DNA from: a virus
IMG/VR virus record: IMGVR_UViG_3300032893_002216
Span: 1 to 20,093 of that record
DNA length: 20,093 bases
Direction: 5' to 3' (one strand)
The notes under the pieces are model-generated. The model ran no database searches and had not been told where the DNA came from. It saw only the letters and a list, made by a program, of their open reading frames with translations. The translations under genes and the position numbers were made by a program. Positions 4,989 through 15,718 of this stretch are shown here, one piece after another (within the stretch, counting starts at the first letter, position 1; each line of letters begins with the position of its first letter).

Positions 4989-5402
4989 TTGGTTACCTTA
5001 AGACCCGTAGGGCTACACGACTGGCAATTCCTCTATGATCTCCTCGCTGAAAGACCCAAGGAAGCCAACATCAGCCACAGGCAAATGCCCTCGATCGCAG
5101 AGCATGTCGCATTTCTGCGTTCAATACCCTACGCAGCCTGGTACATCGTTGAACATGACCACAAGCCAGCAGGCTCGATATACCTGTCAAAGCAAGACGA
5201 AATCGGCATCGCAATACATTCAGGTTTTCAACGCCTTGGTCTTGCCAAACAGGCCATTGAAGAGCTCATGCGCCAGCACCCAAGACCCAGATACCTCGCA
5301 AACATAGCCCCACTAAACCACATGAGCCAAAAGCTCTTCGCAGAACTAGGCTTCAACTTGATACAGCAGACATTCGAGAAGCATGGCAGCTCGAACACGT
5401 AA
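4989..5402 (+). CDS. GNAT family N-acetyltransferase
   Basis: The 137-residue protein has the GNAT layout: an N-terminal VTLRPVGLHDWQFLYDLLAE, a central AWYIVEHDHKPAGSIYLSKQ, the acetyl-CoA binding stretch SGFQRLGLAKQAIEELM (the R/Q..G.G/A motif), and the C-terminal NHMSQKLFAELGFNLIQQTF. The family moves an acetyl group from acetyl-CoA to an amine. Close relatives act on ribosomal proteins (RimJ/RimL) or on amino sugars (PseH in pseudaminic acid synthesis). The nonulosonate-type genes downstream make an amino-sugar substrate attractive, but this is inference. The start is a TTG directly after the upstream stop. It overlaps the terminase small subunit gene by 20 bases. Confidence 0.8.
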   Translation: MVTLRPVGLHDWQFLYDLLAERPKEANISHRQMPSIAEHVAFLRSIPYAAWYIVEHDHKPAGSIYLSKQDEIGIAIHSGFQRLGLAKQAIEELMRQHPRPRYLANIAPLNHMSQKLFAELGFNLIQQTFEKHGSSNT

Positions 5403-5691
5403 AATACGCCACGACGACAATACACGAGCCAAGATCAAGGCAAGTCAGCTCATAAATCGCTTGCAAGATCATTTCCTTGGCAAAGTGGAGCTGTCAGCTA
5501 CACAGGCAAATGTGGGGTTGGGGCTGCTACGGAAGATCCTGCCCGATCTGGCAGCCACAGAGCTGTCTGGTGAAGTAGCACGGACTACAGTCATCCGAGC
5601 ACCTGAAACCGTAGCAGATTCAAGGACATGGCTAGAGAAGCATGCGCCTGGTCGCGATGATGCTGAGCCCAAGCCTGATCAGGTCAACTGA
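5383..5691 (+). CDS. terS: Probable terminase small subunit
   Basis: The 102-residue protein begins MAARTRKIRHDDNTRAKIKA. It continues SQLINRLQDHFLGKVELSAT, then QANVGLGLLRKILPDLAATE and LSGEV. A basic N-terminus and an ASQLINRL...LGKVELSATQ...LLRKILPDL core followed by ELSGE is a pattern I know from genes directly upstream of phage terminases. Small subunits recognise the packaging site and recruit the large subunit. It starts inside the GNAT gene (20-base overlap). Two short direct repeats lie at its 3' end (5688-5706), possible binding sites. Confidence 0.75.
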   Translation: MAARTRKIRHDDNTRAKIKASQLINRLQDHFLGKVELSATQANVGLGLLRKILPDLAATELSGEVARTTVIRAPETVADSRTWLEKHAPGRDDAEPKPDQVN

Positions 5692-5706
5692 CGCACAGCT
5701 GACGCA
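5688..5706 (+). repeat. Short tandem direct repeat at the terS 3' end
   Basis: CTGACGCA occurs twice (5688-5695 and 5699-5706) with a period of 11 bases, about one helical turn, overlapping the terS stop codon. A one-turn spacing would place both copies on the same DNA face, as expected for terminase or regulator binding. No binding protein is shown by the sequence. Confidence 0.4.
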
Positions 5707-5924
5707 TGGCAGCGCTAAGCCAATGATTTCATTGTATGTCCGTTACCTTAGTAAGGAATTGCACGGTGTTGTGTCAGGACCAGCCTATGGTGGAGACCCG
5801 GGGGTAGGTCGGCCGGGGTTGGGAGTCCCGTTACCCGGGGGAGTCACTATGCGTACCCCCGCCCCTATAAAAAACCCCCAACCGCTGTCGATCCTACACA
5901 GTCTAACTCAGTAGACTCTACGCA
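5692..5924 (+). other. Repeat-rich non-coding region, candidate packaging (cos/pac) site
   Basis: This 233-base gap between terS and the next gene is the longest non-coding stretch in the rightward part and holds dense repeats. ACCCGGGGG occurs at 5796-5804 and 5833-5841. The inverted repeat CGGGGG/CCCCCG lies at 5836-5841 and 5856-5861. GGTTGGG at 5817-5823 pairs with CCCAACC at 5877-5883. AGTCTA/TAGACT form a 6-base-arm palindrome at 5900-5917. A 90-codon frame crosses it but has no protein-like features. The location next to both terminase genes fits a cos or pac site. A promoter or leader structure for the terL operon is the alternative. Confidence 0.5.
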
Positions 5925-5942
5925 ATGGCAGTCGATCCTACA
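5887..5942 (+). repeat. 12-base direct repeat flanking a palindrome
   Basis: GTCGATCCTACA is present at 5887-5898 and again at 5931-5942, 44 bases apart. The second copy lies inside the first codons of the 5925 gene. The palindrome AGTCTA-N6-TAGACT lies between them. The arrangement resembles a protein-binding site with flanking repeats. Confidence 0.5.
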
Positions 5943-6179
5943 GAGTTGTTAGCCATAGCCAGCCGGGTCAAGCGTGATACGCGGAACCGGGACATCTTGG
6001 AGTTATGTGAGGCGGTCTTGTCTTGGAAGGGGGTGGTGCCAACTGTATCCAAGCAATCCAACATCTCTGAGATCAGGCCCCGGTTGATAGCCGGGGCCGC
6101 AAGGTGTCCTGAGTGTACTCGGCGTCGGTCCATGAGAACTGCATCGCAGCGGAAATGGCGAAAGAAGCGTACGAAGTAA
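5925..6179 (+). CDS. Small basic protein upstream of the terminase large subunit
   Basis: The 84-residue product begins MAVDPTELLAIASRVKRDTR. It continues NRDILELCEAVLSWKGVVPT, and has a basic C-terminus with a CPEC motif (residues 61-64, RCPECTRRRSMR). The KRDTRNRDILELCEAV helix followed by C..C and an RKWRKKR tail suggests a nucleic-acid-binding protein. No named family is recognised. It overlaps the terL start by 25 bases. No strong ribosome site precedes the ATG. A second, DNA-contacting terminase accessory is possible from its position only. Confidence 0.6.
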   Translation: MAVDPTELLAIASRVKRDTRNRDILELCEAVLSWKGVVPTVSKQSNISEIRPRLIAGAARCPECTRRRSMRTASQRKWRKKRTK

Positions 6180-7651
6180 TCTGGGCACCTCAGTCCGGGC
6201 CTCAGACGGCCTTATTGAGTTGTGAGGTGTTTGAGGTGTTCTTTGGGGGTGCTCGTGGGGGTGGGAAGACGGATGGGATGCTGGGGGATTGGATCAGCCA
6301 TTCCGACCAATATGGGGCGAATGCTTCGGGTCTGATGGTTCGACGGTCTTTGAAGCAGTTGGAAGACACCATCAAGCGATCGAAACAGCTTTATTACAAG
6401 TTGGGGGGGAAGTACAACGAGACGAGTAAAACGTGGGTTATGCCCGGGGGAGGCCAGTTGAAGATGGCCTACCTTGAACGGGATGAGGACGCCCAGAATT
6501 ATCAGGGTCACAGCTACACGAGGATCTATGTCGAGGAGATCGGCACTTTCCCCAGTCCGGACCCTATTTTTAAGCTCATGGCTACTTTACGCAGCGGCTC
6601 CGGGGTGCCTTGCGGGTTCCGTGCCACAGGCAATCCTGGCGGGCCTGGCCATCAGTGGGTTAGGGCTAGGTATATTGACCCTGCTCCGGGAGGTTGGAAG
6701 CTTGTGGAGGAGGCGTTTGTCAACCCTTTCACTGGCGATTCTATTAGCCGGGAGCGTGTATTCATCCCTTCAAGGGTGACTGAGAATAAATACCTGGGAA
6801 CCGAGTACATCGCCAACCTCCAGATGGTTGGAAGTAAGAACCTTGTAAGGGCCTGGCTGGAGGGGGACTGGTCGGTCATTGAAGGGGCGTTCTTTCCTGA
6901 ATTCTCTGAGGCTCGTCATGTCATTCTTCCGTTTAGAATACCGGATGACTGGCTTCGTTTTCGCAGTATGGATTGGGGAAGTGCTTCTCCTTTCAGTGTC
7001 GGATGGTGGGCTGTGGCCAGCGAGGATCATCGCCTTCCTGACAAGCGCATTATTCCTAGGGGTGCTCTGGTTCGTTACCGCGAATGGTATGGAGCCTCCA
7101 AACCGAATGTCGGGCTGAAACTCACCGCGGAGGAAGTAGCCGATGGGATCAGACTTAGGGAGTCAGGAGACCCCAAGATCAGTTATGGAGTTCTTGATCC
7201 GGCAGCTTTTGCTGTCGATGGAGGTCCCAGTATCGCCGAACGTATGGGTAAACGTCAGATTTACTTCCGAGGGGCTGACAACAAACGTATTGCCTCCCGA
7301 GGAGCTCTTGGCGGATGGGATGCTGTCCGTGCAAGACTTAAAGGGGACGACCATCCCGGCATCTTCTTCTTCGACACCTGCGTAGATTCGATCAGGACCC
7401 TTCCTGCCCTTCAACATGACCCCGACAGAATGGAAGACGTCGATACCGAGGGGGAGGATCATGCCCCTGATGAAATCCGCTATGCCTGTATGTCCAGGCC
7501 TTACGCCAGAACGTCTTCCGAATATTCCACCTATGAGGGACCAAGTCCACGGGGACCTGTCCAGATGAAAGCTTTTCCGGTGAGACAGCCCACCCTGGAA
7601 AACCTCTGGTCCGAGGCGGAACGCAACTATCCCAGGTCGAGGCGGATTTGA
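6155..7651 (+). CDS. terL: Terminase large subunit (ATPase/nuclease)
   Basis: The 498-residue protein is the DNA-packaging motor. The Walker A motif GGARGGGKT is at residues 31-39, and the Walker B-type RIYVEEIGTF at 123-132 contains the catalytic acidic residue. ATGNPGGPGH (157-166) is the coupling segment. The C-terminal RNase H-like nuclease has acidic residues in SMDWGSASPF (D273), GVLDPAAF (D348) and HAPDEIRYACM (D439). The length is usual for the family. The start at 6155 (MAKEAYEVIWAPQSGPQ) was chosen over an ATG at 6113 because the family-like sequence begins there. The two genes overlap by 25 bases. It is followed by a TTGA overlap with a tiny membrane protein. Confidence 0.93.
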   Translation: MAKEAYEVIWAPQSGPQTALLSCEVFEVFFGGARGGGKTDGMLGDWISHSDQYGANASGLMVRRSLKQLEDTIKRSKQLYYKLGGKYNETSKTWVMPGGGQLKMAYLERDEDAQNYQGHSYTRIYVEEIGTFPSPDPIFKLMATLRSGSGVPCGFRATGNPGGPGHQWVRARYIDPAPGGWKLVEEAFVNPFTGDSISRERVFIPSRVTENKYLGTEYIANLQMVGSKNLVRAWLEGDWSVIEGAFFPEFSEARHVILPFRIPDDWLRFRSMDWGSASPFSVGWWAVASEDHRLPDKRIIPRGALVRYREWYGASKPNVGLKLTAEEVADGIRLRESGDPKISYGVLDPAAFAVDGGPSIAERMGKRQIYFRGADNKRIASRGALGGWDAVRARLKGDDHPGIFFFDTCVDSIRTLPALQHDPDRMEDVDTEGEDHAPDEIRYACMSRPYARTSSEYSTYEGPSPRGPVQMKAFPVRQPTLENLWSEAERNYPRSRRI

Positions 7652-7770
7652 AGTCGGATTTCCCATCGTTGAATGACGACAAGGAACTTGAGAAGTTTAT
7701 TGGCTGCGTTCTTCTCGTCACTGCCTTGGTAACGACTGCAGTCTACTTCTTGGTCTACTTCTTCACATGA
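7648..7770 (+). CDS. Tiny membrane protein between terL and the enzyme cassette
   Basis: A 40-residue frame starts at TTG overlapping the terL stop (TTGA) and ends with an ATGA overlap to the aminotransferase gene. The product has an acidic N-terminus (SDFPSLNDDKELEKF) and one hydrophobic helix at about residues 20-39 (IGCVLLVTALVTTAVYFLVY). GAGG lies 5 bases before the TTG. It bridges the two genes exactly, so it is probably translated. A single-pass inner-membrane protein is predicted. A holin-like role is possible but unsupported. Confidence 0.65.
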   Translation: MKSDFPSLNDDKELEKFIGCVLLVTALVTTAVYFLVYFFT

Positions 7771-8930
7771 GATACCAAAAATCCCAAGAAGAGCTCCAGC
7801 GGGTCAAGCAGATCATCCCGCTGGCCTCCCAAACGTTTTCCAAGGCCTATAACCGGTGGCCGAAGCAGGCCCCGCATTTTCTTTCTCATGGTAAAGGTGG
7901 GAGAGTCTGGGATGTCGATGGCAACCAATACGTTGATCTCGTCTCGGCACTCCTGCCAAATGTCCTGGGGTACTGCGACCCTGACGTTGACCAGGCCGTC
8001 ATCGATCAGCTGGGGAGAGGCATTAGCTTTAGTCTGCCCACTCTGTCAGAAGTCGCTCTTGCCGACCGCCTCGTTGAGTTCATTCCATGCGCTGAAATGG
8101 TCCGGTTCGGTAAATCAGGGACTGATGCCACCTCAGCAGCAGTCCGACTCGCGCGTGCAGTCACAGGTCGCGACCACATCATCATGTGCGGATACCACGG
8201 CTGGCAAGACTGGAGCATAGGGCAGGCTGACAATCTCGAGAACAGGAAGGGTGTGCCGCGTTCAGTTCGCGAGATGACCACCCAGATCAGGCCTGGTGGA
8301 ATCAAGTGGATCAATCATGTAAATCCTCCAGCCGCCATCATCGTGGATTGTTCGAAAATACAGTTTCATGATGCAAGGCAGTTTCGCGATCTAGCAGATG
8401 ACTGCGGAGCTCTCCTCATCTTCGATGAAGTCATAACGGGGTTTCGATGGGATATCGGGGGAGCTCAATCGGTCTGGGGTGTGAAACCTGACCTTGCCTG
8501 TTTCTCAAAGGCGATGGGAAACGGGATGCCGATCTCTGCGATCGTCGGTCGTGCCGATCTCATGAAGAACTTTGACCATGTCTTCTTCTCCGGAACGTTT
8601 GGTGGGGAAACCCTGTCCATAGCAGCAGCGATCGCCTGCATCGACAAGATCGAACGTGAGGACGTTTGTGAGAAGTTGTCAGTTTCCGGTCGCCTCCTGA
8701 AAGCTGAATTCGGCTCCTCTGATCAGGTCTGGCTGACCGGCCATCCCGCGTTCCAGCAACTGAACTTTGCCTCAGCGGAGGTCAGGGCTGCCTACCTCAC
8801 CTCCATGCTGGAACGCGGGATCCTCGTTAATGCGTCCCTCAACGTCTGCTACGCCCACAACCGTTCCGACCTGATGCAGGTGATCGACGCCCACCACGCC
8901 TCCTTGGAGGCTCTTAAAGTCGCGGCTTGA
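7767..8930 (+). CDS. Class III PLP aminotransferase, glutamate-1-semialdehyde aminomutase-like
   Basis: The 387-residue enzyme shows the class III pattern: VWDVDGNQYVDLVSALLPNV (48-67), cofactor-phosphate loop GKSGTDATSAAVRLARA (115-131), YHGWQDW (143-149), the FDEVITGFR motif with the PLP-contacting aspartate (219-227), and the Schiff-base lysine in CFSKAMGNGMPISA (K248). The closest pattern is glutamate-1-semialdehyde 2,1-aminomutase, but this protein is roughly 40 residues shorter than the usual form. GSAM-like enzymes occur in bacterial surface-sugar clusters with SpsF- and NeuB-type genes, where they probably aminate a sugar, so a tetrapyrrole role is unlikely here. It starts with an ATGA overlap and leads the enzyme cassette. 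The substrate is not evident from the sequence. Confidence 0.88.
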   Translation: MRYQKSQEELQRVKQIIPLASQTFSKAYNRWPKQAPHFLSHGKGGRVWDVDGNQYVDLVSALLPNVLGYCDPDVDQAVIDQLGRGISFSLPTLSEVALADRLVEFIPCAEMVRFGKSGTDATSAAVRLARAVTGRDHIIMCGYHGWQDWSIGQADNLENRKGVPRSVREMTTQIRPGGIKWINHVNPPAAIIVDCSKIQFHDARQFRDLADDCGALLIFDEVITGFRWDIGGAQSVWGVKPDLACFSKAMGNGMPISAIVGRADLMKNFDHVFFSGTFGGETLSIAAAIACIDKIEREDVCEKLSVSGRLLKAEFGSSDQVWLTGHPAFQQLNFASAEVRAAYLTSMLERGILVNASLNVCYAHNRSDLMQVIDAHHASLEALKVAA

Positions 8931-9451
8931 AGTACGAACCTCGACATCTCGCGCAGGCTCTCCCTGAGGAGCAGGTCAGGGATCCCTTCATCAGGAAGTT
9001 GAAACGCGGCTTTCCCCAAAAGGCCAAGTCGGAACGGCATACGCCCGAGGAGTCCTGGGGGTTTCATCTCCTGATCGATTGCCTTGATATGGACGACGAA
9101 ATCGATGACGAGAAAGACATCGAGGCGTTCTTTACCGAGCTGATCCAGGCTTTGGACATGAAACCCCTGTCGGAATTCTTTTGCGTCAGGGTCGATAATG
9201 AAGAAGGCCGAGGTATCTCTGCGTTCCAGATGATCACGACATCCCACATTGCCATGCACTTCGATGACGACGGGCATAACGGGTTCATGGACGTGTTTTC
9301 TTGTAAGAAGTTCGATCCCAGGATCGTTCTTCAGATGATCGAGAAGCACTTCAAGCCTGACAACATGATGGTGCAGTTCGTTTATCGGGATACGGGTATT
9401 GTCGTCGGACCCGATGACAAGAACGACTATGAGATGCACAACACCATATGA
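8927..9451 (+). CDS. SpeD-type pyruvoyl decarboxylase homologue (AdoMet decarboxylase family)
   Basis: The 174-residue protein carries WGFHLLIDCLDMD (44-56) followed by the processing region TTSHIAMHFDDD and GFMDVFSCKKFDP. Relative to Thermotoga SpeD (Ser63, His68, Cys83), the serine that becomes the pyruvoyl group (S106), the histidine (H111, +5) and the cysteine (C126, +20) are all present at the right spacing. The residue before the serine is Thr instead of the usual Glu. SpeD makes decarboxylated AdoMet for spermidine synthesis, but some homologues are known to have become arginine or ornithine decarboxylases, so the substrate is open. There is an extra N-terminal stretch of about 40 residues. 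The start is TTG overlapping the aminotransferase stop (TTGA), and the stop overlaps the pentein gene (ATGA). Confidence 0.85.
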   Translation: MKYEPRHLAQALPEEQVRDPFIRKLKRGFPQKAKSERHTPEESWGFHLLIDCLDMDDEIDDEKDIEAFFTELIQALDMKPLSEFFCVRVDNEEGRGISAFQMITTSHIAMHFDDDGHNGFMDVFSCKKFDPRIVLQMIEKHFKPDNMMVQFVYRDTGIVVGPDDKNDYEMHNTI

Positions 9452-10284
9452 TCACGCCTTCCAGATGGAATGGCCCCGTCTTCCTGATGAACTTCCCTAT
9501 TTCAGTGTCAAGTGACGTTCCCAACAACGCCCTTATGCGTCCGGGTACGATCTACGACAAGAAGAGGGCCTGCGATCAGTGGCTGGAGTTCTATCGAATA
9601 ATGACCGGGGAAGCGCTGGTCTACGTTTTACCCGGACATGATCACCTCCAAGACCTTCCCTTCGTCGCAAACCTCGGTTGTTATCTCCCGCATATCAGAA
9701 ATGACGACGTTGTCCTTCTTTCGAACTACACGTCAGAACCAAGGATAGGTGAGGAGAGGTTCGGGTTCCGCTTCTTCAACAGCTTCGATTACAGCGTTGT
9801 TCAATCCCCCTATTGTTGGGAAGGGGAAGCCGATCTCAAGTGGATCAGGGACAACATCTATATCGGTGGTATCGGGATGCGCTCCACCCCTGATGCTTAC
9901 AAGTGGATGCGATTGAATTTCGACATGGACGTTCACGAGATCAAAATAAACGATCCAAAACTCTATCACCTCGACTGCGTTCTTCTTCCGCTCAGTGAAA
10001 ACAAGGCTCTTGTGAACGTGTCCGTCGTTGACAAGAAAGACCTGAAGACCCTGGAAAGCCTGGTCGAGGTCATCCCGGTCCCGAAAGAGTATGTTTATCA
10101 GGGTTGGACGAACAGCATCATTCTGAACGGCATCGTCATGCATTCACCTGCCGACAAGCCGATCACGCCGTTCGCAGATTTGTTGGACAAGCACGATCTG
10201 AAACTTGCTACTTTTGATCTCACAGAGTTCGACAAGTCGGGAGCGGATTTGTCATGTCTGGTGATGCACATGAACTACAGATGA
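9448..10284 (+). CDS. Pentein-fold guanidino-modifying enzyme (amidinotransferase/DDAH-like)
   Basis: The 278-residue protein has the pattern of the arginine-modifying pentein superfamily. It has an N-terminal VFLMNFPISVSSDVPNNALM (11-30), FVANLGCYLPH (72-82), the substrate-acid motif WEGEADLKWIRDNIYIGGIG (124-143), the catalytic histidine segment LYHLDCVLLPLSENKALV (172-189, H174 and D176), and a C-terminal nucleophile cysteine in GADLSCLVMHM (C270). The His, acidic and Cys residues are all present, so an active enzyme is expected. Family members use a Cys-amidino intermediate to hydrolyse or transfer the guanidino group of arginine, agmatine or methylarginine. It is translationally coupled to the SpeD-like gene upstream and the aldo/keto reductase downstream (ATGA overlaps). 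Either an agmatine-type step or amidination of an amino sugar is possible. Confidence 0.8.
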   Translation: MITPSRWNGPVFLMNFPISVSSDVPNNALMRPGTIYDKKRACDQWLEFYRIMTGEALVYVLPGHDHLQDLPFVANLGCYLPHIRNDDVVLLSNYTSEPRIGEERFGFRFFNSFDYSVVQSPYCWEGEADLKWIRDNIYIGGIGMRSTPDAYKWMRLNFDMDVHEIKINDPKLYHLDCVLLPLSENKALVNVSVVDKKDLKTLESLVEVIPVPKEYVYQGWTNSIILNGIVMHSPADKPITPFADLLDKHDLKLATFDLTEFDKSGADLSCLVMHMNYR

Positions 10285-10952
10285 GAATCGGTCTCGGCAC
10301 GGCGCAGTTCGGGTCTCCTTACGGGATTACGAACAAGGGCCAGCCTTCCCGCAAGGAGTGCGAGAAGATCGTTGAAACTGCGCTCGATGCCGGGATCGTC
10401 TATTTCGACACGGCCGCCTATTACGGGGAAGCGGATTTGATCCTCTCCTCCCTCCTTCCCAGTGAAGGCGTCCGTGTCGTGACCAAGGTCAAAACACCCA
10501 GCGAAGTCCAACAGTCCGTCGATCTCTTCGGAAGAAATCTCTGGGGCATCCTGAGTGATCGGTTCATAGCTGAAGGTATCAGGTCTGGGATTTCCGTTTA
10601 CTGGCCGATCAAGATCGATCCAACAGCACAAATCGTGCAGATGCCCCTGAACATCGCGGATCCCCGAAATCTTCCCTTGTTACGTCTGTACAAGGCCCAG
10701 GACACGGAAGTCCACGCCCGTTCTGTCTTTCTTCAAGGGCTTCTTCTTCAGAGAGGGGCGACCATCAGACAGTGCCTCAAATACGTCCTTGATAAGCCCG
10801 TCGATGTCGCCCTGGTAGGAGTGAACTCAGCGGACGAGCTGAAGGAAATCCTGGAGGCTGTCGAAACCCTCGAACAGGAAAAATGCACAGATATTCCCTT
10901 TATCGAGCCTGAAATGCTTGATCCCAGAGGATGGCCAAATGCCAACAATTAG
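10281..10952 (+). CDS. Short aldo/keto reductase
   Basis: The 223-residue protein begins MRIGLGTAQFGSPYGITNKG, then VYFDTAAYYGEADLILSSLL, and later IVQMPLNIADPRNLPLLRLY and VDVALVGVNSADELKEILEA. These are the hallmark segments of the NAD(P)H-dependent aldo/keto reductase barrel. Asp43, Tyr48 and Lys69 of the catalytic tetrad are present. The segment that normally holds the fourth residue (LLHD) is reduced to NLWGILSDRF with no histidine, and about 60-80 residues are missing compared with typical members. Such reductases accompany GSAM-, SpsF- and NeuB-type genes in bacterial clusters. The start at 10281 forms an ATGA overlap. An altered reaction, epimerase-like or non-redox, is possible. Confidence 0.82.
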   Translation: MRIGLGTAQFGSPYGITNKGQPSRKECEKIVETALDAGIVYFDTAAYYGEADLILSSLLPSEGVRVVTKVKTPSEVQQSVDLFGRNLWGILSDRFIAEGIRSGISVYWPIKIDPTAQIVQMPLNIADPRNLPLLRLYKAQDTEVHARSVFLQGLLLQRGATIRQCLKYVLDKPVDVALVGVNSADELKEILEAVETLEQEKCTDIPFIEPEMLDPRGWPNANN

Positions 10953-11283
10953 CCCGTTCACACCACAAACAGGAAGCGCGGGATCTATCGCCGTCATCGC
11001 TTCGACAAGCGCTTCCCTGCTTCAGTTACCCTTCGGAGGTGGAAGCCAGATCAGGGTCGCCAACTCCGCATCAATTCCAACCTATATGGATTTCGGGGCA
11101 TCAACCGTTGTTGCTTCAGCATCTACTCCGGTTGGAATCATGATGAATCCGACATCCACGCAAATCTTCACGTTTGACACCATCGCAACAGGAACGGCAG
11201 GCAGCAAGACGCAGTATGTCTCTGTCATCGCGAGCGCTGCTACTACTACCCCGATCATCTTCACCCGGGGTGAAGGTTTTTGA
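10939..11283 (+). CDS. Small beta-rich protein, probable virion decoration protein
   Basis: The 114-residue product begins MPTISPFTPQTGSAGSIAVI. It is dominated by Ser, Thr, Ala, Gly and Val in beta-strand-like runs (QIRVANSASIPTYMDFGAST, TPVGIMMNPTSTQIFTFDTI, KTQYVSVIASAATTTPIIFT), has no cysteine and no membrane segment, and is poor in charge. This is typical of small capsid decoration or head-surface proteins with a jelly-roll-like fold. It overlaps the reductase gene by 14 bases and the cytidylyltransferase start by a TTGA junction. It therefore sits in the middle of the sugar-enzyme genes, which raises the idea that it is what gets decorated. Confidence 0.6.
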   Translation: MPTISPFTPQTGSAGSIAVIASTSASLLQLPFGGGSQIRVANSASIPTYMDFGASTVVASASTPVGIMMNPTSTQIFTFDTIATGTAGSKTQYVSVIASAATTTPIIFTRGEGF

Positions 11284-11873
11284 GGACTGTCGCCATCATA
11301 CAGGCGCGCATGGGATCGACTCGACTGCCCCGTAAAGTGCTGATGGATCTCGGTGGCAAGCCTGTCCTGAAATGGGTGTTCGACGCTGCAAAGGCTGCAA
11401 AGCTCGTTCATCATGTCGTAGTAGCCACTCCGGACTATGAGATCGTTGAGTTCTGTGATGCAAACGAAATCCCATGGAGCATGGGTCCTGAGGACGATGT
11501 TCTCGAACGGTTCATCATTGCGGCAGAACATACCAGAGCAACCAAGATCATCAGGTTGACTGCTGACTGTCCCTTCCTTGATCCTGAAATCATCGATCAG
11601 TGCATCCTTCTCAATGAAAGCGCTGTCGATGAATGGCCCGATGGAATGGATGTTCAGGTCATCGATCCCAGATGGCTGCCAATGGGGGACAGAGAACACG
11701 TCGTTCCCGTCAAGAACAACCTTCCCCAGCTGGCCTGTCCTGTGGGGAATATGAGGCACGTCAGGGTGACCCTTGATACGCCTGAAGACCTTGAACGCTG
11801 TAGAACTATGGCGAAGTTTCTTCCGAAAAACCGACCTCCTAAATGGAGGGAGACGATCTCTGCGCATGACTGA
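11280..11873 (+). CDS. spsF: SpsF-type cytidylyltransferase
   Basis: The 197-residue protein starts with the CTP-binding signature IIQARMGSTRLPRKVLMDLG (6-25). It continues with VVVATPDYEIVEFCDAN (46-62), EDDVLERFIIAAE (71-83), the RLTADCPFLDP motif with the metal-binding aspartate (92-102), GMDVQVI (122-128) and DREHVVP (137-143). This is the CMP-Kdo/CMP-sialate synthetase-like SpsF family, expected to activate an acidic sugar as its CMP derivative. It is roughly 40-50 residues shorter than usual SpsF proteins, mainly in the second half. The start is TTG overlapping the decoration gene stop (TTGA). It overlaps the NeuB gene by 8 bases, so synthase and activating enzyme are translationally coupled. 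Confidence 0.88.
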   Translation: MRTVAIIQARMGSTRLPRKVLMDLGGKPVLKWVFDAAKAAKLVHHVVVATPDYEIVEFCDANEIPWSMGPEDDVLERFIIAAEHTRATKIIRLTADCPFLDPEIIDQCILLNESAVDEWPDGMDVQVIDPRWLPMGDREHVVPVKNNLPQLACPVGNMRHVRVTLDTPEDLERCRTMAKFLPKNRPPKWRETISAHD

Positions 11874-12492
11874 AGTCGTCGCTGAAATCTCCGGAAATCA
11901 TGGCGGCTCGATCGTTCATGCACTTGAGCTCATCACGAGAGCAAAGCTGGCCGGTGCAGATTCCGTCAAGTTCCAGTGCTTTGATCCCCAGAAACTCGCG
12001 GAAAAACGTTCGAAAAACCCTGAAGTCCTGAAGTTAGTAAATGGTGCTCCCCTCCTTGATCTATATCGCAAAACTCATACTCCGAAAGAGTGGTTTCCGC
12101 GGTTGATCAACCATGCTCGTACTCAGGATATCGCGTGGTTCTCTTCCGTGTTTGATCCCAGTGATGTCCAGTTTCTCGAAAGGCTCGAATGTCCCCGCTA
12201 CAAGATCAGCGCGTTTGAAATGCTGGACTGGGAATTGATCAGGGCGGTCACGGAAACGGGAAAGCCGATCGTGATCTCGGTCAGACCGACAGAGAAGGTC
12301 ACGGTCTTACAAGCTTCCGACTACAAGGGGATCATGAGGCCTCTTGGTGTCTCTGATCACGGTGGAAGGCTCTGGCGCAACGTTCCCATGGTGGAATGGC
12401 ACTTGAAGCTTCCCGGGGTTGAGACCTTGGACAGCGATTTTTCCCTGACTCCTGATGATATGGAGCAGCTGATTTTTGAGATGCGAGCATGA
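11866..12492 (+). CDS. neuB: Minimal NeuB-type nonulosonate synthase
   Basis: The 208-residue protein has NeuB-barrel motifs: EISGNHGGSIVHALELITRA (7-26), GADSVKFQCFDP (30-41), WFSSVFDPSDVQFLERL (91-107), PRYKISAFEMLDWELI (110-125), GVSDHGG (161-167) and a compressed MVEWHLKLPG...SDFSLTPDDME end (175-200). NeuB enzymes condense phosphoenolpyruvate with a 6-deoxy or N-acyl hexosamine to form sialic, legionaminic or pseudaminic acid. The usual enzyme is about 330-350 residues with a C-terminal antifreeze-like SAF domain. That domain is absent here, and a barrel stretch (the LLHC.S.YPTP region) is also missing. Activity is therefore uncertain. The start at 11866 gives an 8-base overlap with spsF. 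The stop overlaps the dehydratase start (ATGA). Confidence 0.85.
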   Translation: MTEVVAEISGNHGGSIVHALELITRAKLAGADSVKFQCFDPQKLAEKRSKNPEVLKLVNGAPLLDLYRKTHTPKEWFPRLINHARTQDIAWFSSVFDPSDVQFLERLECPRYKISAFEMLDWELIRAVTETGKPIVISVRPTEKVTVLQASDYKGIMRPLGVSDHGGRLWRNVPMVEWHLKLPGVETLDSDFSLTPDDMEQLIFEMRA

Positions 12493-13340
12493 AGATTCTC
12501 GTTACCGGAGGTTCAGGTTCGTTCGGCCAGTCCTTCGTGCGTCGAATGTTGCATAACTGGGATTGCACGCGTGTCGTGGTTTTTTCGAGGGGCGAGCATA
12601 CCCAAGCCGCAATGGCGCAGGAATTGAACGATCCTAAACTGAGGTTCTTTATTGGCGATGTCAGAGATCGCGACAGGTTGCGCCGCGCCATGCAGGGCAT
12701 TGATACCGTGGTTCATGCGGCTGCTCTGAAGCGTATTGAGGTGGCCGAATACAATCCGCTAGAGGTCAAGAAGACGAACATTGATGGTTCTGAAAATGTC
12801 ATTGAAGCAGCGACTGATGCGGGTGTTCGAACGGTTGTGGCGCTTTCCACCGATAAGGCCTATCAACCTGTCAACTTCTACGGCGCATCCAAGTTTCTTG
12901 CGGAAGGGCTATTTCTCAAAGCGAACAATACACGTGGAACGTTTGGGCCAAGATTTGCCGTGTGTCGCTATGGTAACGTATGGGGGTCGAACGGTTCTGT
13001 GGTGCCGAAGTGGCAGGAAATCCTGAAGACATCCGACACTGTTCCAGTAACTGATCCTGATTGCACCCGCTTCTATATGACTCTGGACGAGGCCGTCGAT
13101 CTGGTGGTTAGGGCCATCAAAGATATGAAGGGCGGTGAAACCTTCATCCCAACTCTTCCTGCTTATCGTCTTGGTGACCTTGCCGAGGCCATGGGTGCGA
13201 AGATCAAAGTTCTGGGTCTTCCTGACTGGGAAAAGCGTCACGAGTCCATGGGGCCTGGCAATTCCAGCGACAAGGCGCGTAGGATGAGCGTTGAAGAGCT
13301 CCGCGGCATCCTGGGTATAACGGTCGCCAAAGCGGCATGA
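12489..13340 (+). CDS. pseB: UDP-N-acetylhexosamine 4,6-dehydratase (PseB/FlaA1/CapD type)
   Basis: The 283-residue short-chain dehydrogenase has the NAD(P) motif VTGGSGSFG (5-13), VVHAAALKRIEVAE (74-87), the STDKAYQPVNFYGASKF segment (120-136) with Asp122-Lys123 and the Tyr131-x3-Lys135 pair, CRYGNVWGSNGSV (159-171), and a late LPDWEKRHESM. This is the polysaccharide biosynthesis dehydratase group that removes water from UDP-GlcNAc to give a 4-keto-6-deoxy sugar, the first step of pseudaminic acid synthesis in PseB. Inverting and retaining versions cannot be told apart by eye. It is shorter than the roughly 330 residues usual for PseB. It overlaps the neuB stop and the portal start (both ATGA). 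Confidence 0.87.
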   Translation: MKILVTGGSGSFGQSFVRRMLHNWDCTRVVVFSRGEHTQAAMAQELNDPKLRFFIGDVRDRDRLRRAMQGIDTVVHAAALKRIEVAEYNPLEVKKTNIDGSENVIEAATDAGVRTVVALSTDKAYQPVNFYGASKFLAEGLFLKANNTRGTFGPRFAVCRYGNVWGSNGSVVPKWQEILKTSDTVPVTDPDCTRFYMTLDEAVDLVVRAIKDMKGGETFIPTLPAYRLGDLAEAMGAKIKVLGLPDWEKRHESMGPGNSSDKARRMSVEELRGILGITVAKAA

Positions 13341-15718
13341 ACGATCTTTTCGATCCTGACGACGAGTCGATCAAGGACGACCAGACAGCTGGCGCCTACT
13401 GGAAGTGCGAGATCGATCGCTCTCAGAAGGAGTTCAAGACGTATTGGGAGAAGTGCGACAAGATTGCCAAGCGCTATCGTGACGAGCGCGACCAAAACCG
13501 GGAGAACGCAAAACGCTTCAATATCCTGTGGTCGAACATCCAGACCATGAAGCCGGCGGTCTATGCCAAGGCGCCGAAGCCGATCATTGAGCGACGCTTT
13601 CTTGAACGTAATGATATCGAGCGCGTTGCTGGTATTGCTCTTCAGCGTGCTGTGGCAGTTGAGATCGAAACAAGCGACTTTGAGGAGGCGGTCGGCGGTA
13701 AGCAGGGTGCGGTTATGGATTACCTGCTCTACAGCCGCGGCATGGTATGGCTCAGGTATGAAGCTGATCTCAACACTGAGGACGAATCCACCCCTCTTAC
13801 TGATATTCCAGAAGGCAATGACGAAGTTGAACAGGAGGAAACAAGTCTTCCCACTGTTACAGCCGAGCGAATCTGCATCGACTACGTCCACAGAAAAGAT
13901 TACCTCTGCGATCCCGCCAGAACCGAACAGGAATGCCGATGGAAAGCCAAGAGATCATGGCTGACGAAACGACAGGTCAAGGACAAGTTCGGGGATGAAA
14001 TCGCAGGTAAAGTGGAATATCGCCAGATCAACGATGACGATCGTTATGACGACAAGCAGGCCCCGAAAGAAAGACGAGCAGAGTTCTGGGAAATCTGGGA
14101 CAAGGTCCGCCGAAAGGTATGGGTGATCAACACCGGCTATGACGGGATCTGCAAGGTTACAAAAGACCCCCTTGGACTGAAGAACTTCTGGCCGTGCCCG
14201 AGGCCTCTCTATGGCACGATGACGGATGACAAGCTGGTCCCGATTCCAGATTATATCGAGTACCAGGATCAGGCCGAACAGCTCGATCAGTTGTCTCAAA
14301 GGATCGACAAGATCACCCAGGCCATCAAGGCCGTTGGTTTCTTCGATGCTTCCCAGCCCGAACTGGGACGTTTGTTCGAATTCGGAACAGACAACAAGAT
14401 GGTGCCGTGCGAGACATGGGCCGTCATGAAGGACAAGGGCGGTCTAGCAGGGAGCGTAGACTTCTTCCCGCTGGACATGCTGATCAAGACGCTGGAAACC
14501 CTTCAGACGGTCTTTGATAGTCAGTTACAGCGCCTCTATGAAGTGACCGGGATTGCCGACATCATCAGGGGCAATTCTTCCCCTGAAGAAACCTATGGCG
14601 CCCAGAAGATCAAAGGGCAGTTTGCGACCTTGAGGCTTCAGGATCGGCAGCGGGATGTCTCGCGATTCTGCCGGGATATAGTTTCGATCATGACCGAGCT
14701 GATCGCGGTTCACTTCGAACCAGAGACGATCGCGGCCATGACGGGGTTGGGGGACCAGAACTCTCCTGACGCCCAGTATTTTCAGCAGGCCATGGAGCTT
14801 GTCGGGGATGCCCGGCTTCGTTCCTTCCGGGTCGATATCGAGACGAATTCAACTATCGAGCTCGATATCAACGAGGACAAGAAGAACACCACGGAGTTTG
14901 TCAACGGCGTAGCCCAGTATTTCAACCAGATCATGCCGGCGGCGGAAAAGATGCCGCAACTTATTCCTTTGGCCGGCAACGTCCTTCTCTGGGCGATCAG
15001 GAGATTCAGGACCGGACGTGAGTTGGAAAGCGTCTTTGAACGCGCTGTTGATGATTTCACCAGGATGTCTCAGTCGGGTGCTCTGACTGTTCAACAGCCC
15101 AACCCTGAGATGCTGAAGATCCAGGCCCAGCAGCAGTCCGACATGGCCGATCTGCAGCTTCAGAGGGAGAAGATGCAGAATGATGCCCAGATGTCCGAGG
15201 CCCAGATGCGCTTCGAGATGTTGAAGCATCAGAATGACATGGCGTTCCAGCAGAAACAGCATGAAGAGCAGATGGAGCTGGAAAGGTTGAAATTGGGTGC
15301 CCAGGTCCACCTGAAGGACAAGGACATTCAGCAACAAGACAAGGAACATCAGTACGAGATGGACCTGAAGCAGGTCGATCACGCCCACGACTCGACCGAG
15401 AGAGAAAAGGATCGCTCCCACGAGTCCCTGCACAAACTGGCTGATCAAGAGCATGAAGGCAAAATGAAGAAGGAAGATCATGCTCATGAGGCCACTGAAA
15501 AGGGCAAGGATCGTCAGGCACAGTCTGAACAGGCAGACAAGACCCATTCCGCCACGGAGAAGGTCGCCAAGATCAAGGCAAATCCGAAGGGCGAGGATAG
15601 CGACTTGTCTGATCTCAAGAAGCAACTTGACGAGCTGATGAAGCACCACAAGGCACCCGTTGAAATCCTGAGGGGCAAGGACGGGAAGATCACTGGGGCA
15701 AGGCGTGTGCTGCAGTGA
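13337..15718 (+). CDS. Portal protein with long C-terminal coiled coil
   Basis: The 793-residue protein has the arrangement of a large phage portal. The N-terminal region has RFNILWSNIQTMKPAVYAKA and a clip/stem-like middle (DYIEYQDQAEQLDQLSQRID, then ALYEVTGIADIIRG-like and GAQKIKGQFATLRLQDRQRD at about 415-440). The family C-terminus PVEILRGKDGKITGARRV ends it. From about residue 588 to 770 the chain is almost only Gln, Glu, Lys, Asp, His and Met, with recurring DHAH..TE..KDR units, which predicts a long coiled coil resembling the barrel of P22-type portals. The portal forms the dodecameric DNA gateway of the head and docks the terminase. Its start overlaps the dehydratase stop (ATGA), and the stop overlaps a GTG start. 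Confidence 0.88.
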   Translation: MNDLFDPDDESIKDDQTAGAYWKCEIDRSQKEFKTYWEKCDKIAKRYRDERDQNRENAKRFNILWSNIQTMKPAVYAKAPKPIIERRFLERNDIERVAGIALQRAVAVEIETSDFEEAVGGKQGAVMDYLLYSRGMVWLRYEADLNTEDESTPLTDIPEGNDEVEQEETSLPTVTAERICIDYVHRKDYLCDPARTEQECRWKAKRSWLTKRQVKDKFGDEIAGKVEYRQINDDDRYDDKQAPKERRAEFWEIWDKVRRKVWVINTGYDGICKVTKDPLGLKNFWPCPRPLYGTMTDDKLVPIPDYIEYQDQAEQLDQLSQRIDKITQAIKAVGFFDASQPELGRLFEFGTDNKMVPCETWAVMKDKGGLAGSVDFFPLDMLIKTLETLQTVFDSQLQRLYEVTGIADIIRGNSSPEETYGAQKIKGQFATLRLQDRQRDVSRFCRDIVSIMTELIAVHFEPETIAAMTGLGDQNSPDAQYFQQAMELVGDARLRSFRVDIETNSTIELDINEDKKNTTEFVNGVAQYFNQIMPAAEKMPQLIPLAGNVLLWAIRRFRTGRELESVFERAVDDFTRMSQSGALTVQQPNPEMLKIQAQQQSDMADLQLQREKMQNDAQMSEAQMRFEMLKHQNDMAFQQKQHEEQMELERLKLGAQVHLKDKDIQQQDKEHQYEMDLKQVDHAHDSTEREKDRSHESLHKLADQEHEGKMKKEDHAHEATEKGKDRQAQSEQADKTHSATEKVAKIKANPKGEDSDLSDLKKQLDELMKHHKAPVEILRGKDGKITGARRVLQ

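Follow-up and report, generated by a model that had tools for sequence, protein, structure and literature searches.

Besides true AdoMetDC, the AdoMetDC homologues include arginine decarboxylases, called SpeDA, and ornithine decarboxylases, called SpeDC (PMC10407285). A 2023 survey of the virosphere reported SpeDA and SpeDC in phages as well as an arginase and an ornithine decarboxylase (ODC) in giant viruses, found no arginase homologue in phages, and makes no mention in its text of an arginine dihydrolase or an amidinotransferase (PMC9992855). The papers on SpeDC describe no pentein coupling for phages (PMC9992855, PMC10407285), and psd figures in the ocean AMG catalogue in connection with lipids. 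Phage polyamine enzymes have so far mostly been lone genes acting on host metabolites. Some phages package polyamines, and T4 DNA synthesis and maturation need them (PMC7226272); a Pseudomonas phage has another way of increasing the putrescine made from arginine (PMC11898732).

Here, we describe a SpeD-like gene overlapping a pentein gene in a 20,093-base IMG/VR phage fragment, referred to as the window. From sequence comparisons and structural models, we predict that this gene pair is a phage-borne, two-step route leading from host arginine to ornithine and then to putrescine, a reading that we consider probable, with appreciable room for doubt.

Organization of the locus

The two genes belong to a single operon located between a terminase gene (6113-7651) and a 793-aa ORF (13337-15718), which looks like a portal protein, judging from its position. 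The operon successively encodes a class III aminotransferase, the SpeD-like protein, the pentein, a short aldo/keto reductase, a small ORF, a cytidylyltransferase, a shortened NeuB/PseI-like protein and a PseB-like protein. Its features are:

7767..8930, + strand: class III aminotransferase, glutamate-1-semialdehyde-aminomutase-like (Pfam/NCBIfam)
8927..9451, + strand: SpeD-family pyruvoyl decarboxylase, predicted SpeDC (ornithine decarboxylase)-like (Pfam PF02675, motif alignment, tree, AF2 and Foldseek)
9448..9451, + strand: ATGA stop/start overlap of the SpeD-like and pentein genes (sequence)
9448..10284, + strand: pentein (guanidine-modifying) enzyme, apparently arginine-dihydrolase-like (NCBIfam, PDB sequence search, AF2 and Foldseek, invariance in 84 homologues)
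10281..10952, + strand: short aldo/keto-reductase-like protein (start overlapping the pentein stop, ATGA)
11280-11873, + strand: cytidylyltransferase (Pfam/NCBIfam)
about 11866-12492, + strand: shortened PseI/NeuB-like protein (Pfam/NCBIfam)
12489-13340, + strand: PseB-like protein (Pfam/NCBIfam)

The SpeD-like ORF starts with TTG and encodes 174 aa, and the pentein ORF starts with ATG and encodes 278 aa. The coordinates and residues that the original prediction had given for both genes are correct, as are the ATGA overlap and the description of their neighbours as sugar-type enzymes lying between the terminase and the next late gene. Overlaps of 4 bases are found between the aminotransferase and SpeD-like genes (TTGA), the SpeD-like and pentein genes (ATGA) and the pentein and reductase genes (ATGA), the second of which suggests that the SpeD-like and pentein genes are translationally coupled. 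The aminotransferase gene shares the operon with the pair; a part for it in the function of the pair is not supported.

A scan of viral_contigs with the pentein alignment retrieves 138 relatives, the best 80 of which underlie our counts. The aminotransferase, NeuB, cytidylyltransferase and PseB genes of the window are found at none of the other pentein loci (best 80 of 138), so that the link to NeuB raised by the original prediction now looks incidental. Most simply, the sugar cassette and the pair would have been brought together in the window phage; that putrescine or ornithine is used on the sugar is conceivable but not supported. Six SpeD loci adjoin a PseB-like match, but these matches are weak (E down to 4.6e-08) and were not counted in favour of a sugar link. 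The NeuB/PseI-like protein (about 209 aa) and the aldo/keto reductase (224 aa) of the window are both far shorter than their families. The NeuB match spans just the first half of the profile and an FSLTPDD-like end is still present, as if the gene had been compacted through an internal deletion.

Predicted affiliation of the SpeD-like protein

Ser106, His111 and Cys126 of the SpeD-like protein lie at S, S+5 and S+20, the spacing that was originally noted and that of the catalytic S63/H68/C83 of T. maritima AdoMetDC (residues named in PMC10407285). The protein matches the Pfam family AdoMet_dc (PF02675) with E=1.1e-17. In its AlphaFold2 model, the SpeD-like domain aligns with T. maritima AdoMetDC (1vr7/1tlu) at TM 0.75-0.88 and rmsd 1.5-1.7 (Foldseek) and, as modelled, has the class 1b AdoMetDC fold.

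SpeDC carries a Gln, Thr, Phe, Tyr signature (PMC10407285 Fig. 8) and true AdoMetDC a Pro signature (PMC10407285). The ODC-diagnostic positions were placed here by conservation among related proteins of phages and bacteria (motif VQLIxTSxIxxHFxxxxxxxYLDVFSCK); the same region of the window protein reads FQMITTSHIAMHFDDDGHNGFMDVFSCK. Q101, T105 and F112 are found at the positions thus inferred, and the fourth is occupied by Phe120, in contrast to the Tyr of the ODC group. The proline that AdoMetDC conserves just beyond the region of the catalytic His is missing (HFDDDG vs HTWPE).

In a tree of 132 rows (IQ-TREE), the window protein and that of another phage contig, L038, are sisters (92/99) inside a 116-row SpeDC-type group (92/92), with the AdoMetDC clade (100/99) and the pelagiphage ADC proteins (91/90) both separate. 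The window protein is on a long branch. The SpeDC-type group includes the C-halves of SpeD-SpeDC fusions and a Methanomicrobiales protein, which are taxa reported for SpeDC (PMC10407285). Such fusions, of 278-315 aa, are encoded at L190, L219, L224, L230, L234, L237, L238, L243 and L251, mostly Desulfobacterales-type MAGs, in agreement with the fusions of PMC10407285.

An AdoMetDC identity of the SpeD-like protein was rejected, given that the conserved Pro is missing and that the protein lies outside the AdoMetDC clade. The ODC clade contains one Sinorhizobium phage protein that is a genuine AdoMetDC (PMC9992855); phiM19, a relative of this protein, has Asp at the position of the window's Thr. 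The window protein groups with the branch of pyruvoyl ornithine decarboxylases (SpeDC), and its activity is predicted accordingly from sequence; the tree is also consistent with the initial proposal of a neofunctionalised, non-AdoMet branch.

The pentein appears arginine-dihydrolase-like

In NCBIfam, the pentein comes nearest to arginine dihydrolase (8.7e-20), followed by mycobacterial-type DDAH (6.8e-17); all these matches fall well short of the curated cut-offs. As it scores 71 bits on NF052232, for which the curated cut-off is 450 bits, it is called dihydrolase-like and not a member of the family. When the single sequence is compared with PDB sequences, ArgZ/AgrE come best (E 2.2e-14), SxtG and HsvA reaching 0.017 and 0.14, and a profile built from 18 relatives matches AgrE and ArgZ alone (best E 1.8e-24). 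The AF2 model (pLDDT 88.4, pTM 0.88) gives similar results: its top 13 Foldseek matches in the PDB are ArgZ/AgrE (TM 0.82-0.89, rmsd mostly about 2; 1.9 at TM 0.88), DDAH comes next (TM 0.76), and the amidinotransferases AGAT and HsvA (TM 0.71-0.76) are further down.

The catalytic His174, acidic residues and Cys270 already recognized in the original prediction are present. N75, R99, E125, D129, R145, H174, D176, N222 and C270 are invariant among 84 aligned homologues, and N75/R99/E125/D129/R145/H174/D176/C270 align with AgrE N71/R90/E118/D122/R139/H168/D170/C264 (residues counted on alignments). The crystal structure of an ArgZ N71S mutant contains a covalently attached reaction intermediate (title of 6juz), and structures of C264 mutants contain substrate. 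The match of the catalytic sets of both the SpeD-like protein and the pentein is far beyond chance. R90 and R139 of AgrE, like their counterparts in DDAH and ArgZ, presumably clamp the substrate carboxylate; the invariance of R99 and R145, which correspond to them, thus argues for a substrate bearing a carboxylate. As the N71-equivalent Asn is also present in bacterial homologues without assigned specificity, citrulline is compatible with the sequence as a product, and the pentein might hydrolyse arginine to citrulline. In the pentein tree, the phage-type penteins are set apart as one clade (100/100), in which the window and L038 proteins are sisters (100/100). Arginine dihydrolases yield ornithine plus two NH3. 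By sequence, profile and predicted fold, the pentein appears arginine-dihydrolase-like, and arginine is its predicted substrate.

The pentein could alternatively be an amidinotransferase, with arginine as the amidino donor and an amine (polyamine, amino sugar or nucleotide) as the acceptor; the ornithine thus freed would be converted by SpeDC to putrescine, perhaps itself the acceptor. We consider this unlikely. Campylobacter homologues of the pentein do carry that annotation, AGAT and the polyamine amidinotransferase HsvA share the fold, ornithine would likewise be produced, and the window pair sits among sugar genes. However, ArgZ/AgrE are much nearer in sequence, by the E-values given above, and also in fold, the pentein has 278 aa where amidinotransferase chains have 340-387 residues, and all the other pentein loci (best 80 of 138) are devoid of the window's sugar genes. 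The suggestion first made for this locus, amidino transfer to an amino sugar, is likewise not supported, amidinotransferases being far more distant matches. A close relationship to AGAT, StrB or SxtG was rejected, since the best such match among PDB sequences is SxtG at E 0.017 and the likeness is in fold only (TM 0.76).

A reverse order of the two steps, also proposed at first, would have the SpeD-like protein make agmatine from arginine and the pentein deiminate or hydrolyse agmatine to N-carbamoylputrescine or putrescine. Pelagiphages have pyruvoyl ADCs of SpeD origin and the phage SpeDC UCP01 accepts both arginine and ornithine (PMC9992855), and the SpeD-like gene comes first of the two in the operon. 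This order is nevertheless very unlikely: in the PDB, the pentein profile matched arginine dihydrolases only, both presumed carboxylate-binding Arg are invariant, the window SpeD-like protein groups with ornithine decarboxylases and outside the pelagiphage ADC group, and the pentein gene is ahead of the decarboxylase gene in T4-like loci. An agmatine deiminase identity of the pentein was rejected, as no match to that family was found in Pfam, NCBIfam or PDB sequences. Structure prediction, the check originally proposed, upholds a guanidino enzyme, nearest to ArgZ/AgrE, and speaks against agmatine, with no agmatine deiminase among the 50 Foldseek matches listed.

The pentein recurs beside two families of decarboxylases

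Scans of viral_contigs with a single SpeD-like or pentein sequence gave no matches, and alignments were required. L038 is a 118-kb phage contig whose portal is unrelated to that of the window. It encodes a SpeD domain and then a pentein, in the same order as in the window and with a TGATG stop/start overlap, and its SpeD is 43% identical to the window protein, the other aligned members being under 40%. The L038 SpeD domain is C-terminal in a 691-aa ORF (L038:7929-10004) that has an N-terminal NUDIX domain and low-complexity linkers. This ORF sits between the portal gene and a DUF2213 gene, and the NUDIX-SpeD protein may be virion-associated.

A homologue of PS_Dcarbxylase (PF02666; PSD) is next after the pentein in 78 of 80 viral contigs (best 80 of 138). 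The two exceptions are L038, with its SpeD partner, and a contig ending 93 bases past the pentein match. Conversely, 77 of the 80 loci scanned from the PSD side (best 80 of 229) contain the pentein, the other 3 being cut at a contig edge. In a collection of 50,697 phage records, all 45 with a PSD homologue are also among the 47 with a pentein; these 45 are Campylobacter and Bacteroides phages, which stem from a small number of lineages and should be weighed accordingly. The two pentein-only records come from a Xanthomonas phage, whose pentein is of the ArgZ clade, and from a Campylobacter phage with a partial pentein match. The PSD family is absent from the window and L038, the SpeD family was found in none of 23 other pentein records except L038, and none of the records searched for both families contains both decarboxylases.

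As no pentein is found in the flanks of SpeD-side viral loci (0/80), the association is directed from pentein to decarboxylase and not the reverse. An ArgZ-type pentein is present in 1/34 bacterial SpeDC genomes, as a 725-aa ORF of bifunctional size, and these genomes were rejected on this ground as the origin of the pair. SpeDC has therefore no need of a pentein.

Among the neighbour clusters of the pentein, the upstream one (74 loci) was identified as the Gp23 major capsid protein and the second one downstream (71 loci) as PhoH, each from one representative. At L068, the PSD-family gene (10906-11643) comes directly after the pentein gene, as it does at 78 further loci (L003 and L012-L091 less L038, L068 and L085); PSD loci of the L068 type are T4-like aquatic phages. 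The order pentein then PSD is also that of Bacteroides phage DAC19. In Campylobacter phage F336 (MT863715.1), the homologues are encoded far apart, as 'amidinotransferase' (95927-96910) and 'phosphatidyl-serine decarboxylase' (5210-5977), annotations that are probably misleading. On the bacterial side, L273:564-2264, in a genome from the Pseudomonadota set, has a PSD-type decarboxylase gene and then a phage-type pentein gene, in opposite order; its neighbours (ABC transporter, SDR) look non-phage. At L272, a SpeDC-like gene lies about 3.4 kb upstream of a phage-type pentein gene. The bacterial genome G386 has two phage-type penteins (L271, L272), each near an adenylate-cyclase-like ORF.

The SpeD-pentein pair is real and recurrent. 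The original prediction made much depend on co-occurrence of the pair in related phages, which is found in L038 and, with PSD as the neighbour, in 78 of the 80 contigs; this pyruvoyl decarboxylase beside the pentein in nearly all other viral loci also supports its view of the two enzymes as a predicted functional pair. That the decarboxylase product would be a lipid or AdoMet-derived, the pairing being an inherited late-region gene order in few phage lineages, is hardly probable: although the PSD family is named after phosphatidylserine, one phage SpeD of the ODC clade is an AdoMetDC (PMC9992855) and many paired loci come from related T4-like phages, so that records are not independent events, T4-like, Bacteroides, Campylobacter (distal), L038 and window phages all show the pairing, as does the bacterial contig L273, where PSD comes first, the two decarboxylase families substitute for each other without detected similarity, and the PSD and pentein record sets coincide across the 50,697 phages.

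PSD-family enzymes are pyruvoyl-dependent, like SpeD, and no similarity was detected between the two families. Their exchange beside one type of pentein has the appearance of a non-orthologous replacement and suggests a common chemistry. The phage PSD-family proteins all keep a Gly-Ser-Gln motif and a His. To our knowledge, no amino-acid substrate has been described for such a protein, which is possibly a candidate new branch of amino-acid decarboxylases.

A putative route from arginine to putrescine

Gene structure, homology, fold, catalytic residues and repeated pairing with two decarboxylase families are all observed; the substrates, products, order of steps and biological purpose that we infer for the pair are as follows. 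The pentein would hydrolyse L-arginine to L-ornithine through Cys270, with release of ammonia and CO2. The SpeD-like proenzyme would cleave itself at Ser106, forming its pyruvoyl cofactor, and the enzyme would then decarboxylate ornithine to putrescine. This order is proposed because the pentein is arginine-dihydrolase-like and the SpeD-like protein lies in the ornithine-decarboxylase group. Putrescine could be used late in infection, for instance in neutralising DNA charge during packaging, a supply suggested by the location of pentein-family genes near head and packaging genes. In other phages, the same pentein would act with a PSD-family pyruvoyl decarboxylase replacing SpeD.

If this is true, the phage makes putrescine from arginine in two steps and bypasses the ornithine supply of its host. 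A testable function would also be provided for two families that are misleadingly named or nameless in Campylobacter, Bacteroides and aquatic phages. A broader claim, for which we see even chances, is that of a widespread phage polyamine module, in which an ArgZ-like pentein and an interchangeable SpeD- or PSD-type decarboxylase convert arginine to putrescine at head assembly, the PSD type being a new amino-acid decarboxylase branch.

Comparison with known systems

In the open-access literature searched, we found no phage arginine-to-putrescine route of this kind, in keeping with the original prediction that no described pathway joins the pair, and no paper joining PSD and amidinotransferase in phages. 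The closest described relatives each share part of the proposed module. SpeDC (PMC9992855, PMC10407285) resembles the window protein in fold, S/H/C spacing, Gln/Thr/Phe signature and occurrence in phages; the window protein differs by Phe120 in place of Tyr, an N-terminal extension and its coupling to a pentein. The cyanobacterial ArgZ/AgrE (PDB 6juy, 6jv0, 6lrf-6lrh) share with the pentein the fold (TM 0.88) and all the active-site residues compared. The window pentein is, however, only 22-26% identical to them, stand-alone and without the ornithine cyclodeaminase domain; WEGEAD replaces FEGAGD, and it belongs to a separate clade (100/100) and is phage-borne beside a decarboxylase. The giant-virus (Klosneuvirus) arginase and ODC resemble the proposed module as a virus-encoded path from arginine to ornithine and putrescine, but belong to different enzyme families (PMC9992855). 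Finally, the 'phosphatidylserine decarboxylase' and 'amidinotransferase' of Campylobacter Fletchervirus are homologues of the PSD partner and of the pentein and always occur together in the records searched, whereas, unlike the window pair, they are encoded apart and annotated with unrelated functions.
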